Part shown: positions 3,135-34,537 of the stretch, piece after piece
Position numbering within the stretch: the stretch's first letter is position 1
Layout of the letters: the number at the start of each line of letters is the position of its first letter
Source: Bifidobacterium scaligerum
Lineage (GTDB): Bacteria > Actinomycetota > Actinomycetes > Actinomycetales > Bifidobacteriaceae
Direction of reading: 5' to 3'
DNA length: 64,000 bases
NCBI RefSeq assembly: GCF_002802865.1
Contig: NZ_PGLQ01000001.1
Span: 62,001-126,000 of the forward strand
Notes under the pieces: model-generated
Seen by the model: only the letters and a program-made list of their open reading frames with translations
The model's database searches: none
Told to the model about the DNA's origin: nothing
Made by a program: the position numbers and the translations under genes

Positions 3135-4367
3135 TCACGCAGCGTTCTTGACGGCAGTCGCGACGGAAACGGCCGGATCGAGGAACGGGATCAGCGTGGA
3201 CTGGAAGGCGTGGTACAGGTCAGACTTGCCTGGCCATACCGTGCCGATCACCTTGTTGTCCTTGTCGAGCTGGTGGAACCAGGATCCGCCCTCATGGTCG
3301 ATGAGATGCTCATCCACATATTCGGCGAAAGTGGCGTACCAGTTGGCGTACTCCTCCTTGCCGGTGGCCGCATACAGCGTTGCCGAAGTGTTCAGGCCCT
3401 CGGCAAGCGTCCAGTGCATGCGGTCAGTGACCACCGGCTTGCCGGACCAGTCGGTGGTGTAGGCCAAGCCCACGGTGCCATCGGCGTTCCAGCCATCGGC
3501 CACGGCGCGGGCGAACAGCAGCTCGGCGGCCTCGATGTAAGGCTCCGCGCCCTCAGCGTTGGCGAAGGAGCTCAGCGCCCACTGGGTGATCAAACGAGCC
3601 CATTCGATGCCGTGGCCGGGGGTGGCGCCGTACGGCTTGAACTGATCGTCCTTCTTGTCGGCGTTGAATTCGAGGTTGATGGACCAGTCGGAGTTGAAGT
3701 GCTCAGGGATGCGCCACTCGTTGTTCTTCGCCCAGCCGATGACATGATCGATGATGCGGCCGGCACGTACGCGGTAGGTGTTGTCTCCGGTGGCATCCGC
3801 AACGGCGAGGAAGGCCTCGGTGGTGTGCATGTTGGCGTTGAGGCCGCGATATGGATCCAGTTTGGTGAATTCGGTATTCCACGTGTCGACGGCAAGACCA
3901 GTCTCGTCATCCCAGAAACGCTCGTTGAAGGTCTTCAGAGCTTCATCCAGCAGCTCACTGGCACCGGGACGTCCAGCCAACAGCGCGGAGGATGCCGCGA
4001 GAATCACGAAGGCGTGGGTGTAGCAGATCTTGTCCGGGGCGGGGGAGCCGTCCTCGTTGACCTGCGGATACCAACCGCCATGCTCGTCATCGTGCAGGAT
4101 GCCGGTCAGTCCTTTGAGCGCCTTGTCGACCAGCTCGCCGGCACCGGGGTAGCCAAGCAGCGCTCCGATGGAATACACGTGAGCCATACGGCAGGTGATC
4201 CAAGTCTGCACGCCCTGAGACGGGTCCAGCGAACCGTCACCGTTCAACCAGCCGGAGCCGCCGTTCGGGGCGGGGAATCCGGTGCCGAACTTCAACAGCT
4301 CATAGGTTTCGGAAGCCATGAAAATGCGGTTGGCTTCGGTGCCGAGAGAATACTTGGGATTGGTCAT
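3135..4367 (-). CDS. AGE-superfamily aldose-ketose isomerase (probable mannose isomerase)
   Basis: The 410-residue protein has the (alpha/alpha)6-barrel pattern of N-acylglucosamine 2-epimerases and YihS-type sugar isomerases. Visible marks are YTHAFVILAASSAL, the PGHGIEWARL motif carrying a catalytic-type His, and SDLYHAFQSTLIP near the C-terminus, where YihS and mannose isomerases carry DxYHA. These enzymes interconvert mannose and fructose without phosphorylation. A fructokinase and an alpha-mannosidase lie on the same strand, so mannose released by GH125 could be turned to fructose and then fructose-6-P. The start at 4367 is chosen for its repeated AAGGAAGG ribosome binding site; the upstream extension of 49 residues looks non-coding. 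It is cytosolic, with no signal peptide. A glucose or N-acylglucosamine epimerase role is the alternative. Confidence 0.85.
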   Translation of the reverse strand: MTNPKYSLGTEANRIFMASETYELLKFGTGFPAPNGGSGWLNGDGSLDPSQGVQTWITCRMAHVYSIGALLGYPGAGELVDKALKGLTGILHDDEHGGWYPQVNEDGSPAPDKICYTHAFVILAASSALLAGRPGASELLDEALKTFNERFWDDETGLAVDTWNTEFTKLDPYRGLNANMHTTEAFLAVADATGDNTYRVRAGRIIDHVIGWAKNNEWRIPEHFNSDWSINLEFNADKKDDQFKPYGATPGHGIEWARLITQWALSSFANAEGAEPYIEAAELLFARAVADGWNADGTVGLAYTTDWSGKPVVTDRMHWTLAEGLNTSATLYAATGKEEYANWYATFAEYVDEHLIDHEGGSWFHQLDKDNKVIGTVWPGKSDLYHAFQSTLIPFLDPAVSVATAVKNAA

Positions 4368-4545: not shown

Positions 4546-5844
4546 TCAGCGTTTCACGCGAATGTCGAAATAGTCCATGACCAGCTCGCAGAACATCATG
4601 TTCGACCAGCTGAACCATTCTCGTGTGTATTTGGTCGGATCGTCCACATCGATGCCTTCGTGCATGAGATGCGTGCCGGCGTCCGTGGCTACGAGACGGT
4701 CAAGGGTTTCGGCTTCGAATTCCTTGCTTGCGCTGGTCATCGCCTCGATCGACAGTGCGATCGGCCAGACGTAACGTGGCGGCGTGTGCGGAGAGCCGAT
4801 GCCCTTGAGGTATTTGCCCTCGTAATAGTACGGGTTCTCGTCGCTGAGTATCGTGCGGCGCGTGGCGAGATAAATCGGGTCGTCCGTGGCGCAGTAGCCC
4901 AAGTAAGGTGCGGCCATCAAGTCAGGGACGTTGCTGTCCGTCATGATGTTGTAGTTGCCAAGGCCGTCGGTCTCGAAGGCGTAGATCGTTTCGCCGGCAC
5001 GATTCGTGGTCTTGCCGTAGGTTTCGATGCCGTTTTTCACCGAGGCGCGCAGGGCTGCGGCGCGCTCTGCGATTGCGGGGTCGTTAAGAAGGTCCGCTCC
5101 GAAGATGCGTTCGAGGTACTCCATCACCACGACGACGAACATGTTCGCCGGCACCAGATAGTGATAGGTGCAGGCGTCATCGCTGGGGCGGAATCCGGAC
5201 CAGGTCATGCCGGTGACGGCGACGGGCGAACCCTTGCCATCATTGTCCAACGTTTCGGTGGGCAGGTCGGTCTGACGGATGAAGAAGTACGGTGACTTTG
5301 AGTGATCCTGTTCGGTTTCGAACACGTCGAGGATCTTGCGCACGCCGGAGACGAACTCATCGTCGAACTGATCGGTGCGTCCGGTGTTGGCGTAGAGCAG
5401 CCAGGCGAGCTGAATCGGGTAGCACAGGGAATCCACCTCATATTTGCGCTCCCACAGCCACGGGCTGGAGAAGTTGGACTGATCGTGCGGGTCCCAGGTA
5501 TTGCCGTTGGGCTCCTCGTTGAAGGCGTTCGCATACGGGTCGATATTGATGTAACGGAACTGTTGGCGTACCAGTCCGCAGATCATGTCCGCCAACTCGG
5601 GATCGTGTTGCGCCAGCACCAGATACGGACGGACCTGCGCGGTCGAATCGCGCAGCCACATGGCGGGGATGTCGCCGGTGAGCAGGAACGTCGTGCCGTC
5701 GTCGTGGCGGCGGACGGTGGTGGTTAGCGTGTTGGCGAAGCAGGCATTGAAATTCTCGGCCCAACGGGCGTGCTCGGTGCCGCACAGTTCGGTGATGTGC
5801 TGCATGAAGTCCGAAACCGACTTCGGGACTGGGGCTGTGCTCAT
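4546..5844 (-). CDS. GH125 exo-alpha-1,6-mannosidase
   Basis: The 432-residue protein matches the GH125 (former DUF1237) family over its length, with GDIPAMWLRDS at about residues 57-67 as the signature. Further marks are YEVDSLCYP, FRPSDDACTYHYLVPANMF and the C-terminal YTREWFSWSN. The family releases mannose from alpha-1,6-linked mannosides such as the core of high-mannose N-glycans by an inverting mechanism. No signal peptide is visible, so it should act inside the cell on imported oligosaccharides. The start ATG at 5844 follows AAGAAG; a TTG nine bases upstream is less likely. A perfect palindrome at 5920-5933 overlaps a -10-like TAGAAT (minus strand, 5917-5922), which suggests direct repression by the neighbouring LacI protein. 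The isomerase lies downstream on the same strand. Confidence 0.93.
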   Translation of the reverse strand: MSTAPVPKSVSDFMQHITELCGTEHARWAENFNACFANTLTTTVRRHDDGTTFLLTGDIPAMWLRDSTAQVRPYLVLAQHDPELADMICGLVRQQFRYINIDPYANAFNEEPNGNTWDPHDQSNFSSPWLWERKYEVDSLCYPIQLAWLLYANTGRTDQFDDEFVSGVRKILDVFETEQDHSKSPYFFIRQTDLPTETLDNDGKGSPVAVTGMTWSGFRPSDDACTYHYLVPANMFVVVVMEYLERIFGADLLNDPAIAERAAALRASVKNGIETYGKTTNRAGETIYAFETDGLGNYNIMTDSNVPDLMAAPYLGYCATDDPIYLATRRTILSDENPYYYEGKYLKGIGSPHTPPRYVWPIALSIEAMTSASKEFEAETLDRLVATDAGTHLMHEGIDVDDPTKYTREWFSWSNMMFCELVMDYFDIRVKR

Positions 5845-5919
5845 AACAGTCAACTTCTTTGTTTTTCTTTGGTTGGTGTGAAGGTGAGATCAGGGATACA
5901 TCTCAGGGACGGCACCATT

Positions 5920-6054: not shown

Positions 6055-6126
6055 GGCATAACAACAGGGCATGGGCTCTCCGCACGCAATACGTATGGCG
6101 GAGAGCCCATGCCCTGTTGTTATGCC
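6055..6126. repeat. Perfect 29-bp inverted repeat, 14-nt loop
   Basis: The arms at 6055-6083 and 6098-6126 are perfect reverse complements over 29 bases. The loop (6084-6097) contains the short palindrome ATACGTAT. The element lies in the gap between the permease stop (6210) and the GH125 promoter. There is no T run on either side, so it is not a classical intrinsic terminator. It could block read-through, stabilise a 3' end, or be a mobile palindromic element. Confidence 0.9.
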
Positions 6127-6209: not shown

Positions 6210-7592
6210 TCAGTTGGCGATTTCGCCCTTCTCGGACATTTCCTTGAGCTGAGCCGGGGTGTACTTATCGCGCTTGAATTCGCTGATGAAGTAGAGACCC
6301 ACAATCAGCAGCTCGATGGCCGGCAGAATGAAGGAGAACTGCATCGAGGTAGCGTCGGAGAGCGCGCCCTGAGCCATCGGCAGGATGGCGCCGCCGACCA
6401 GAGCCATCACGATGATGGCGCCGGCGGTCTCGGTGTGACGACGATCCTCGACGGTCTTCAAGGTACGCGAGTAGATCGTCGGCCAGCCCGGTCCGAGGAA
6501 CAGGGAGACCAGTACGGCCAGCCAGACGGAAGCCATGCCCGGCACAAACGCCGTGCCGATAAGCACCACGCAGCCGACGACCATGTACACCGCCAGCACA
6601 CGGGTCTCACGGAACTTCGAAAGCAGGTAGCTGGCGGAGATACGTCCCACGAAGAAGACGATGTAGCTCATGATCATGTAGTTGGCCGAGTCGCGGTCGG
6701 TGACCTTGATGCCGGTCTGGTCGGCGACGTTGAGCACCAGACGCATGGTGAACGACCAGATGCCGGTCTGCGCGCCGATGTAGATGAACTGGACCGCGAT
6801 GCCCTGCCAGAAGCGGCCGTTGTGTGCCAGATAGGTCATGGTCTCGCCGAGCTTGGCCTTGGCCACATCGCCTTCCTTGGTCTGCGGGCGGCACTTCGGG
6901 AACCTGACGACCGCAAACAGCGCGATGAAGATAAGCATGACGATCATAACCACGATGTACGGCTGCAGTGTGCGGCCGAGCTGCTCGGAGGCGAGGTCAA
7001 GAGCGGCCTGCGGATTGGTCTTGCGCAGCTCCTCCATCTGGGTGTGCAGGTTGGAATCCTGGAATACGAAGAACTTGCCGAGCAGCACGCCGGTGATCAG
7101 ACCAAGTGCGTTCATGGTCTGCGCCACATTCAGTCGCAGCGTGCTCAGACGCTTCGGGCCAAGCAGGGTGGCGTAGGTGTCGGCCGAGGTCTCCAAGAAG
7201 CTCAGGCCGATGGCCTCAACGAAGATGGCGAACAGGAAGACCTCGTACGTGATCAGACGCGAGGCCGGGAAGAAGATGAAGCAGCCGAGCGCGAAGAACG
7301 CGAGGCCGGTCATGATGCCCGCCTTGTAGCTCGTCTTCTTGATGAACAGTGAAGCGGGGATGGCGATGATGAAGTAGCCGGCGTAGAACGCGGACTGCAC
7401 CAGAGCGGTCTGCATATCGGTCAGCTCAAACACCGGCTTGAACTGAGTGATCAGTACGTCGTTGAGGCTTTGAGCGATCGCCCAGAATGCGAACAGGATC
7501 GAAGTCATCGCGAACTGCAGAACGGGCGTACGGTCAAGGTAGCCGTCGGAGCTCTCTACCCACGCCTCTTTCTTGGATGTGGTCTTGTCCAT
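6210..7592 (-). CDS. FHS/FucP-like MFS sugar permease
   Basis: The 460-residue protein has about 12 hydrophobic segments. It has the features of the fucose:H+ symporter (FHS) branch of the major facilitator superfamily: AFWAIAQSLNDVLITQF in the first segment, SAFYAGYFIIAIPASLFIKK, and FLETSADTYATLLGP in the middle of the first half. FHS members take up fucose, glucose, galactose, fructose or mannose by proton symport. With a mannose isomerase, a fructokinase and an alpha-mannosidase beside it and no fucose genes in sight, a hexose such as mannose or fructose is more likely than fucose. The start at 7592 is preceded by AAAGGGA; a longer frame from 7799 overlaps the VOC gene. Substrate is inferred. 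Confidence 0.88.
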   Translation of the reverse strand: MDKTTSKKEAWVESSDGYLDRTPVLQFAMTSILFAFWAIAQSLNDVLITQFKPVFELTDMQTALVQSAFYAGYFIIAIPASLFIKKTSYKAGIMTGLAFFALGCFIFFPASRLITYEVFLFAIFVEAIGLSFLETSADTYATLLGPKRLSTLRLNVAQTMNALGLITGVLLGKFFVFQDSNLHTQMEELRKTNPQAALDLASEQLGRTLQPYIVVMIVMLIFIALFAVVRFPKCRPQTKEGDVAKAKLGETMTYLAHNGRFWQGIAVQFIYIGAQTGIWSFTMRLVLNVADQTGIKVTDRDSANYMIMSYIVFFVGRISASYLLSKFRETRVLAVYMVVGCVVLIGTAFVPGMASVWLAVLVSLFLGPGWPTIYSRTLKTVEDRRHTETAGAIIVMALVGGAILPMAQGALSDATSMQFSFILPAIELLIVGLYFISEFKRDKYTPAQLKEMSEKGEIAN

Positions 7593-7662
7593 GATTGTGT
7601 ATCCCTTTTTCTCCATATGGACTTGAACGGTTGAATATGACTGAAACTGTTGATCTATGGGC

Positions 7663-7705
7663 GCCATGGTGTCGGCATATGCGTGGCACCTGCCGACACC
7701 ATGGC
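7663..7705 (-). terminator. Hairpin after the VOC gene
   Basis: Perfect 15-base arms (7663-7677 and 7691-7705) flank a 13-base loop, 8 bases beyond the VOC stop codon on the minus strand. This fits a terminator or a 3'-end stabiliser; no T run is seen. Confidence 0.55.
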
Positions 7706-7713
7706 ACGCCGAA

Positions 7714-8103
7714 CTACATGATCTGGCAGAACTCGATGACCTCGTGGTTGGGGCCGAGCACGTTGAAGTAACGGATGCCGTGCTCCCAGAAGGTGTCAAT
7801 GTGCTGGATGGAGCCTTCCACGAAGTTCAGGCCGAGCTTCTGCGCTTCGGCGAACGAGGCTTCGATGTCGGTGGAGTCGAGCGCGAAGTGGTTGATCGCG
7901 CCGTTTTCCATCGGGGTGGGGTCCATGGTCCACACCTCAAGCGTCAGATTGTTCAGGCGCAGGAAGGTGCAACGATCTTCCCCGTTCGGGTAGATGCCGA
8001 GGCACTCGAAGCCGAGCTTCTCGTAGTAGGCGATAGTGCCCTCAAGATCGGTGGTGGGGATGCCGACATGCTGAACTCCGGTGACGGTATCGCGGATGGA
8101 CAT
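7714..8103 (-). CDS. VOC-superfamily (glyoxalase-like) protein
   Basis: The 129-residue protein has two beta-alpha-beta-beta-beta modules. VQHVGIPTTDLEGTIAYYEKLGF opens the first, with His12 as a likely metal ligand, and INHFALDSTD and NHEVIEFCQ carry the second His and Glu. The vicinal-oxygen-chelate fold includes glyoxalase I, methylmalonyl-CoA epimerase and dioxygenases; a single-domain protein of this size is most like glyoxalase I or an epimerase. It lies between the permease and fructokinase genes on the same strand, so it may handle a sugar-derived compound such as methylglyoxal or act on a sugar. The start at 8103 follows AAAGGAG with 5-base spacing. The exact reaction is unknown. Confidence 0.85.
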   Translation of the reverse strand: MSIRDTVTGVQHVGIPTTDLEGTIAYYEKLGFECLGIYPNGEDRCTFLRLNNLTLEVWTMDPTPMENGAINHFALDSTDIEASFAEAQKLGLNFVEGSIQHIDTFWEHGIRYFNVLGPNHEVIEFCQIM

Positions 8104-32558: not shown

Positions 32559-33068
32559 TCACCATGTGCCGATCGGGGCGGCTATAGCGTTTAATACTGT
32601 GAGCAGATCCTGAGGATGGACGCCTACGGACAGGCCGCGTTTGCCGCCGGAGACCAGAATCTGATCAAATTGCAGGGCGCTTTCATCCAATACCGTCTTA
32701 TGATGGGTTTTCTGCCCGAGTGGGGAGATGCCGCCGACGACATAGCCGGATTCACGCATGGCGACCTTCGGATCCGCCATGGCGGCCTTCTTGGCACCGA
32801 CTGCTGCGGCCAGCGCCTTCAGATCCATATGTCCGCTGACTGGCACCACGCCGACCACACGTTCGGAACCGGTGTCCGCCATCAGGGTCTTAAACACTTG
32901 GTGCTCGCCGAATCCGAGTTTGGTTGCCGCCTCTACGCCGTATCCGTCGTCCATATGATCGTTCGAATGTTCGTATTCGTATACGTGGAATTCCACGCCG
33001 GCCTTCTCCAGCTGGACGGTTGCCGGCGTGGAGCCAGCACCCTTGTCATGTTTGTTTTTCTTAGCCAT
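32559..33068 (-). CDS. ybaK: YbaK/EbsC-type aminoacyl-tRNA deacylase
   Basis: The 169-residue protein matches the YbaK branch, which hydrolyses Cys-tRNA(Pro). Family marks are TPATVQLEKAGVEFHVYEYEH at the N-terminus, FKTLM, and the glycine-rich VVGGISPLGQK near the middle with the LVSGGKRGLSVGVHPQDLL end. It edits misacylated tRNA in the cytosol. The lysine in FKTL is the usual active-site residue. The start at 33068 is preceded by a weak ribosome binding site. It is convergent with the zinc-ribbon gene. Confidence 0.93.
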   Translation of the reverse strand: MAKKNKHDKGAGSTPATVQLEKAGVEFHVYEYEHSNDHMDDGYGVEAATKLGFGEHQVFKTLMADTGSERVVGVVPVSGHMDLKALAAAVGAKKAAMADPKVAMRESGYVVGGISPLGQKTHHKTVLDESALQFDQILVSGGKRGLSVGVHPQDLLTVLNAIAAPIGTW

Positions 33069-33126
33069 GGTTTCTGTTCTACACCACTGACGGTGACGGA
33101 TAAAAGCGACTGAAGCTCATCGCGGT

Positions 33127-33174
33127 CCTTTGTATGTTCGCGCTACTTACGAAGCCGCCGCGAACATACAAAGG
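33127..33174. repeat. Twin hairpin element, left unit
   Basis: CCTTTGTATGTTCGCG (33127-33142) and its exact reverse complement (33159-33174) flank a 16-base spacer. An identical pair of arms follows at 33191-33238 around an unrelated 16-base spacer. It lies upstream of the YbaK start and downstream of the gap gene, both on minus. Confidence 0.95.
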
Positions 33175-33190
33175 TTTGAAGTGGATAAAT

Positions 33191-33238
33191 CCTTTGTATG
33201 TTCGCGCAGGTCCCGTAAAGAACGCGAACATACAAAGG
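33191..33238. repeat. Twin hairpin element, right unit
   Basis: The same 16-base arms as the left unit (33191-33206 and 33223-33238) surround a different 16-base spacer. The match extends by two more bases at each end here (AT...AT). The two units are 16 bases apart, so arms, loops and gap all measure 16 bases. Confidence 0.95.
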
Positions 33239-33283
33239 ATCAATACGCTTGATCGCCCGGTCGAGACCTTGCCCGGTATGAAA

Positions 33284-33314
33284 AATCCCGCCTCACTCAA
33301 CAGCGGGCGGGATT
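33284..33314 (-). terminator. Intrinsic terminator of gap
   Basis: AATCCCGCC (33284-33292) and GGCGGGATT (33306-33314) form the stem; on the minus strand it runs into TTTTT. It is 48 bases beyond the gap stop codon. Confidence 0.9.
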
Positions 33315-33362: not shown

Positions 33363-34421
33363 TCACTCGGAGATCTCAGCGAAGTACAGCAGGGTACGGA
33401 TCATGTTGGAGGTGAAGCCGTACTCGTTGTCGTAGAAGGAGACGGTGCGAGCCAGGGTCACGCCGTCAACGGTGTTGACGTCGGTCTGGGTCGGATCGAA
33501 CACACCACCGTGGGTGTCGCCAAGGATATCGGAGGAGACGATGCCCTCATCGTTGTAGCCGTAGTAATCGGTGTTGGAGAAGGCTTCCTTGAAGGCGGCG
33601 TTGATCTCGTCGGCGGTGGTCTCGGTGTTCAGAACGGTGGTCAGCTCGGTGACGGAGCCGTCCGGAACCTGAACGCGCTGGGCGTGACCCTGCAGCTTGC
33701 CGTTCACGGACGGAACGACCTTGCCGATGGCCTTGGCAGCGCCGGTGGAGTGGGCGATGGTGTTGATGGCAGCGGCGCGCAGGTTGCGACCGGTCTTGGT
33801 GCCACGCGGGCCATCGAGCAGCATCTGGGTGCCGGTGTAAGCGTGGATGGTGGTCATGAAGCCAGCCTTGATGCCGAACTTCTCGTCCAGCAGCTTCACC
33901 ATGGCGGCCATGGAGTTGGTGGTGCAGGAGCCGGCGGAGACGATCACGTCGGAAGGCTTGAGGATGTCGTGGTTCACGCCGAACACGACGGTCGGGGTGA
34001 CGTCATCCTTGGCCGGAGCGGAGATCAGGACCTTCTTGGCGCCAGCGTTGATGTGGGCCTGGGACTTCTCGGCGGAAGTGTAGAAGCCGGTGCACTCAAG
34101 CACGTACTCAACACCGTCGTTCTTGACCCACGGAATGTTGTTGGCGTCCTTCTCGGCGTAGACCTTGTATTCCTTGCCGTCCACCACGATGGAGTCCTCG
34201 GTGGCCTTCACATCGACCGGGGTGCCGTCGTCGTGACGGAAGGTGCCGTGGGTGGAATCGTACTTCAGCAGGTAAGCCAGGGTGGCCGGGGTGGTCAGAT
34301 CGTTGATGGCGGCAACTTCGATGTCACCAGCCTGGCCGCCGCGAGCCTGCAGCTCGAAGATACGACGGAAGGCGAGGCGACCAATGCGACCGAAGCCGTT
34401 GATACCAATCTTAACTGTCAT
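33363..34421 (-). CDS. gap: Glyceraldehyde-3-phosphate dehydrogenase
   Basis: The 352-residue protein is a class [23 protein letters not shown] is the NAD-binding start, and [17 protein letters not shown] contains the catalytic Cys. [14 protein letters not shown] and [13 protein letters not shown] complete the fold. It oxidises glyceraldehyde-3-P in the lower part of the bifid shunt. The start at 34421 follows AAGGGAG; an upstream extension of 17 residues is not supported. Codon use is strongly biased, as expected of an abundant enzyme. Confidence 0.98.
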
Positions 34422-34537
34422 GTAATTCTCCCTTGTAGGGTGGCCGTGACATGCAGACGCACGTCGGACCATTGTTTACCAACGCTTGTTACTTTAATGC
34501 CTCGCCTGTACACAAATCAACGTTGCAGCATGTGTTT

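Follow-up and report, generated by a model that had tools for sequence, protein, structure and literature searches.

The element described here lies between two minus-strand genes in the window, a 64,000-nt stretch of the Bifidobacterium scaligerum genome. Its upstream neighbour is gap (33363–34472, minus strand), which encodes glyceraldehyde-3-phosphate dehydrogenase (Pfam Gp_dh_N/C); these coordinates are those of the ORF as listed, and the true start is probably internal. The downstream neighbour encodes a ybaK-like aminoacyl-tRNA editing protein (32559–33068, minus strand; Pfam tRNA_edit). A complete element of 112 bp (33127–33238), one of 17 in this genome, lies 59 bp upstream of ybaK, in the interval that separates this gene from the 3' end of gap. 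It is built on a 16-mer arm, CCTTTGTATGTTCGCG, present in four exact copies of alternating orientation, successive arms being 32 bases apart. Arm 1 (33127–33142, plus strand) is followed by loop 1 (33143–33158, plus strand; CTACTTACGAAGCCGC), which contains the ACGA core of the family, and by arm 2 (33159–33174, minus strand), the exact reverse complement of arm 1. The middle spacer TTTGAAGTGGATAAAT (33175–33190), with ATTT/AAAT-like ends resembling those of other copies, separates this first hairpin from arm 3 (33191–33206, plus strand), loop 2 (33207–33222, minus strand) and arm 4 (33223–33238, minus strand), both arms again exact matches. Loop 2 loosely resembles loop 1 in reverse complement and reads TTCTTTACGGGACCTG on the minus strand. 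The initial annotation had reported twin hairpins with four perfect arms and 16-base segments throughout at 33127–33238, and all of these coordinates and lengths are correct.

Because the two loops are loosely mutual reverse complements, all 112 bp also form a single imperfect palindrome with 52-nt arms that are 83% complementary. The element can thus fold in alternative ways, as two hairpins or as a single long hairpin. As single-stranded DNA, the long hairpin is predicted at -40.5 kcal/mol, and the 48-nt hairpins taken singly at about -17 to -18 kcal/mol each. RNA folding, a check proposed at the outset, gives very stable structures (-69 to -77 kcal/mol), with z-scores of about -9 to -11. 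The element contains no T run, and the intrinsic terminator of gap, recognized from its sequence and by alignment with relatives, is a separate feature outside it (33281–33314, minus strand), in agreement with the earlier statement that the hairpins are not a terminator. Chance had likewise been discounted, and the counts bear this out. With up to three mismatches allowed, the four arms are the only arm matches in the window; shuffled windows hold 0.54 on average, and none of 100 shuffles holds four. Across the whole genome, the same tolerance yields 71 matches (37 + 34) versus 16 for a reversed control, and each strand has 28 occurrences of the arm-N16-arm pattern versus 0 in controls.

A covariance model, R1, built on an alignment of 30 copies (A1) and used for the element search, detects the 17 elements in the B. 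scaligerum assembly. Exactly four arms at 32/32/32 spacing are found in 14 of them, while one copy has three arms (C11:402979), one has two (C2:61453) and one is 142 bases long (C7:2036). Readable copies share oriented loops with an ACGA-like core, loop 2 being reversed relative to loop 1, together with a middle spacer of 16 bp that is AT-rich at its ends, single copies deviating from this family pattern. About 10 of the 17 are common to B. olomucense DSM 109959 (G055), and, judging from such sequence comparison, many of the B. scaligerum copies are old. At one B. scaligerum locus (L085), two elements (3526–3637 and 5029–5140) surround a single 370-aa gene with a weak match to AbiEi_4, and this pair is also present in B. 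olomucense. Close pairs, 1.4–1.65 kb apart, occur in genomes G024, G010, G037 and G011 as well. A transposon-like cassette, in which two elements about 1.5 kb apart enclose one gene, was considered for these pairs (L085; 902892/904547 in G011; those of G010, G024 and G037). It was rejected as a consistent arrangement because the enclosed genes differ where they were read, being AbiEi_4-like below the cut-off in B. scaligerum and hypothetical ORFs in G011.

The family extends across part of the genus. Model R1 finds it in 22–23 of 112 Bifidobacterium genomes (23 at E <= 0.01), the weakest matches, in G017 and G044, looking doubtful and that in G044 being lost at E <= 0.001. Copy number varies by species from none detected to about 26 per genome, a genome the size of that of B. 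bifidum holding about 20. The model has no match in other genera among 64 sampled in the order, and the element has none in viral, phage or plasmid sequences. Named relatives in the comparison include B. saguini (G071), B. cebidarum (G021), B. felsineum (G032) and B. miconisargentati (G048); G011 (2,211,039 bp), G015 (2,269,415 bp) and G044 (2,385,164 bp) agree in size with the type strains of B. bifidum, B. breve and B. longum, respectively. The search of bifidobacterial genomes that the initial annotation had called for therefore places the arms genome-wide and in relatives rather than at this one locus. Arm sequences vary by species (e.g., CCTTTGTATGTTCGCG, CGTCCGTATGTACGCG, CGAGCGTAACTGCGCG, CTTCACAAAGTTCGCG and CGTCACTATGTTCGAG), yet high arm complementarity is retained in 19 genomes despite these differences. 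Within one element, arms agree on average at about 14 or more of 16 positions, and arm likeness is 13.6/16 within a genome versus 11.4/16 between genomes, in a comparison for which the B. saguini copies were picked by their TTTG-arm pattern. Segment lengths are constant (16/16/16 or 15/16/15), with a middle spacer of 16 between loops of 16/16 or 15/15 nt, and elements measure 112 bp or, in other species, 110 bp.

The copies in G011 define the limits of the unit most clearly. This genome holds 19 elements in 2.0 Mb, and all 15 that have both hairpins show 31/32/31 spacing. Similarity between copies ends within about 4 bp beyond the outer arms, so the family constitutes a discrete repeat unit, here of about 118 bp. 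About 30 bp are conserved at each end (arms 1 and 4 plus loops), the best-conserved part being the outer arms together with the beginning of each loop (TAAGTGCGCGCCGAAACGAC), and the loops themselves are well conserved (CCGAAACGAC...). The initial annotation had raised the possibility of an RNA with exchangeable loops, a suggestion weakened by this conservation and by the common, oriented ACGA core. Of the 19 copies, 18 are intergenic (12 tandem, 5 convergent and 1 divergent), against a background of 601/181/175 tandem/convergent/divergent gaps of at least 50 bp, with genes called by a simple codon-usage script. Judged by eye, no clustering of G011 copies near the origin or terminus is apparent. 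Two near-identical copies (902892 and 904547, locus L256) lie 1655 bp apart and share 156 bp at 95.5% identity; their likeness includes sequence upstream of the element and reflects a local duplication.

Long-stem palindromes of other kinds were also seen. The window contains one at 6057–6126, between the minus-strand ORFs 4546–5853 and 6210–7799; its ~29-bp arms (GGCATAACAACAGGGCATGGGCTCTCCGC) enclose a 14-nt loop, and its arm core has no match in the other loci compared. A second long-stem hairpin (7664–7704; CCATGGTGTCGGCA arms, 13-nt loop) lies near the 5' end of ORF 6210–7799. In G011 (L211–L310), CGGCGAAAGTCCCAT-N14-ATGGGACTTTCGCCG palindromes account for 23 arm matches, with 7 pairs separated by a single constant distance; further long-stem palindromes have arms around AACTCGCAGATA (31 matches). 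Bifidobacteria may hold several families of long-stem palindromes with loops near 14 nt.

Comparison of orthologous sites reveals both gain and loss. At the gap-ybaK site, the inserted sequence is about 194 bp (33086–33279) and comprises the element and, on either side of it, about 40 bp that are unique; the insert exceeds the element by about 80 bp, and its ends differ from the element ends. Among 30 gap-ybaK loci examined, only those of B. scaligerum and B. olomucense carry it, and the corresponding empty gap measures 93–94 bp in B. saguini, B. felsineum, B. cebidarum, G024, G044 and G015. On the simplest reading of these alignments, an insertion would have occurred on the branch leading to B. 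scaligerum and B. olomucense. No target-site duplication is obvious by eye in the G011 flanks or the window insert, and the copies may be too old to retain one. At L080b, B. olomucense retains hairpin 2 only, and decay by partial deletion therefore happens; the three-arm and two-arm copies of B. scaligerum represent further decay. At L090 (6500–6611, compared with L322), B. olomucense lacks both hairpins and retains 13 bp that, when reverse-complemented, are identical to the B. scaligerum middle spacer, possibly the footprint of a template-switch deletion. Such a deletion and an insertion are both compatible with this site, which was therefore rejected as a clean empty site and left out as proof of mobility. 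At L089, the downstream region differs between genomes, and the site is uninformative.

Within fixed copies, the arms change more slowly than the remainder of the element. Across eight ortholog pairs of B. scaligerum and B. olomucense, changed positions number 13/512 in arms, 25/256 in loops and 14/128 in middle spacers. Arms thus differ from spacers as a whole (39/384, p = 2e-6), which drift ~4x faster, whereas spacers and alignable flanks (20/288) change at about equal rates (p = 0.17). Joint drift of loops and arms at a neutral rate, which had been named as an outcome that would count against the original proposal, is accordingly not seen. Some changes within an element are also coordinated. 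Position 12 is altered together in three arms of one element (L082 versus L113), and a compensating change affects arms 1 and 2 of another (L086 versus L110). At the 3' site of gnd, the element appears to be the same in B. scaligerum, G024 and B. saguini, its arms being of the TTTG type in B. scaligerum and of the TCCG type in G024 and B. saguini; an aldo-keto reductase site shows the same pattern in B. scaligerum, G024 and B. felsineum. At both orthologous sites, the four arms have been altered in concert.

In the alignment of B. scaligerum-type copies, pairing of adjacent arms accounts for 35 two-sided changes versus 17.5 +/- 3.0 in shuffles, and nested pairing for 23 versus 17.7 +/- 2.9. 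Nested pairing is clearly supported only for arms 1 and 4 of the G011 copies, which agree at 61/75 positions versus 51.9 in shuffles (p = 0.002); in the same copies arms 1 and 2 also agree above shuffles (p = 0.009), and arms 1 and 3 do not. Both folds are partly supported, since the pairing counts of adjacent and nested arms exceed those of shuffles. Top model matches favour adjacent pairing because R1 itself contains the two-hairpin structure, and the pairing-change signal could also be produced by template switching between arms.

Several known repeat systems resemble the family in part. REPINs are inverted doublets with conserved 16-mers, in which spacer length outweighs spacer sequence and compensatory changes occur (PMC3116915). 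The Bifidobacterium elements are likewise repeated, short, extragenic and palindromic, with two inverted units and a spacer in about 110 bp. Again like REPINs, they can fold into a long hairpin, contain conserved 16-base stretches, maintain the length of the spacer more than its sequence, undergo compensatory changes and have a species-specific sequence (PMC3116915). They differ in their single fixed geometry, in numbering about 20 and not hundreds, and in lacking a GTAG/CGTC foot tag, which is a feature of REPs (PMC3733652). No conserved GTAG/GTGG or CGTC tag is found in the B. scaligerum elements, where AAAT/ATTT flanks adjoin arms that begin CCTT or CGTT. Each unit has a loop of 15–16 nt, in contrast to the 2–5 nt of a REP search rule (PMC6006769). 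The B. scaligerum genome also lacks a RAYT (Y1 transposase, PF01797); RAYTs occur in 7 of 112 genomes, of which only G016 has the element, and a RAYT link was rejected on this absence and lack of co-distribution. Because foot tag, short loop and RAYT were all tested and none was found, the element is not classed as a REP or REPIN. BIMEs share palindromic units of alternating orientation, linkers and intergenic location, but the Bifidobacterium element has four arms (two units) and neither expanded arrays nor a REP-type tag. The CGTC-tagged repeats of Di Nocera et al. (2013), with stems of 8–9 bp and loops of 4–5 bp (PMC3733652), are palindromic, often head-to-head dimers and have no associated transposase (PMC3733652), and arms of several other Bifidobacterium species start with CGTC; stems of 16, loops of 15–16 and a window arm starting with CCTT set the present family apart. 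The text of that study does not mention Bifidobacterium (PMC3733652). MITEs of DDE insertion sequences are similarly short, non-coding and multi-copy with terminal inverted repeats (here arms 1 and 4 plus loops), but they have two ends rather than four arms, and no target-site duplication is obvious by eye here. Arm matches in B. scaligerum (<=2 mismatches) fall in element-type clusters plus one lone arm, none flanking a transposase, and reveal neither a parent insertion sequence with the same ends nor an arm-flanked autonomous copy. A CRISPR array was rejected, as the repeats alternate in orientation and number four per locus at 17 loci. No Rfam family scores above its gathering threshold or near it, and a literature search, mostly outside subscription journals, found no published description of a Bifidobacterium repeat of this kind. 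The family is apparently an undescribed, new form of a known kind of repeat.

Of the four options first put forward (a binding array, a recombination site, a mobile palindromic element and an RNA with exchangeable loops), the mobile element is best supported, because copies are dispersed, ends are sharp and insertion is lineage-specific. The family probably consists of miniature, non-coding, non-autonomous palindromic elements that disseminate through the genomes of bifidobacteria and work in a REPIN/BIME-like manner. Dispersed intergenic copies of one geometry, lineage-specific presence and complementarity maintained despite arm change all support mobility; the slower evolution of arms than loops in fixed orthologous copies speaks against it, being unexpected for dead mobile DNA. 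Also against it count the lack of a RAYT gene and of an arm-flanked autonomous copy in B. scaligerum, the lack of an obvious target-site duplication, the excess length of the window insert and the age of many copies. The constraint on arms is the main reason a binding array stays in play, as a serious though less likely account. Under it, the copies would be a dispersed array with a host function in chromosome organisation or regulation, in which a predicted protein binds as a dimer or tetramer to 16-bp arms at ~20 sites, the arms lying ~three helical turns apart on one DNA face and co-evolving with the protein. The ~4x deficit of arm changes, the constant 31–32 bp spacing over drifting spacer sequence, the retention of the gnd and aldo-keto reductase sites across species and the greater arm likeness within genomes fit such an array. 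Against this, adjoining genes have no common function, sites are located preferentially after genes rather than at promoters, and the G011 copies do not cluster at origin or terminus. Such a function would have to be dispensable, given that G044 lacks a copy at the stricter threshold and that no copy is detected in about 80% of species; moreover, independent binding sites need no concerted arm change specific to neighbours.

A role as structured RNA within 3' untranslated regions, through a read-through hairpin that stops 3' exonucleases or serves as a substrate of RNase III, appears improbable. It would accommodate the very stable RNA folds, the position of most copies after genes and the retained complementarity, but conservation within species covers arm sequence beyond pairing alone, the window copy comes after an intact gap terminator, and the Rfam matches, far under threshold, are mostly to animal or viral miRNA models; nothing speaks specifically for this reading. 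Least credible is a local operator for ybaK/gap or a site-specific recombination site, as might be suggested by the location 59 bp upstream of ybaK and by inverted repeats at fixed spacing. The same element adjoins unrelated genes, usually downstream of them, and ybaK lacks it in nearly all relatives; the loops retain one orientation and are therefore not undergoing inversion. Dispersal largely refutes both variants.

For a mobile palindromic element, a mechanism can be outlined. When single-stranded, as at a replication fork, the element would fold, either as a single long hairpin or as a pair of 48-nt hairpins, and an enzyme encoded elsewhere would recognise the paired arms at their fixed spacing and then copy or move the element. 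The arms would be held alike because they must pair, bind the same protein, or both, with template switching between arms helping, and the loops would chiefly set distance. More tentatively, Actinobacteria could have palindromic mobile DNA of a new class, represented by this family and served by a non-RAYT (non-Y1 HUH) enzyme that recognises four near-identical arms set a constant helical distance apart, with arm sequence shifting by species along with the enzyme.

Short palindromic repeats in bacteria have mostly been explained via proteobacterial RAYT transposases. A RAYT-less family with REPIN-like large-scale logic and a different anatomy, present across much of a gut genus, suggests a second route. 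The elements offer a natural set of sites for fishing out the protein, as well as markers for strain typing and insertion history in bifidobacteria.
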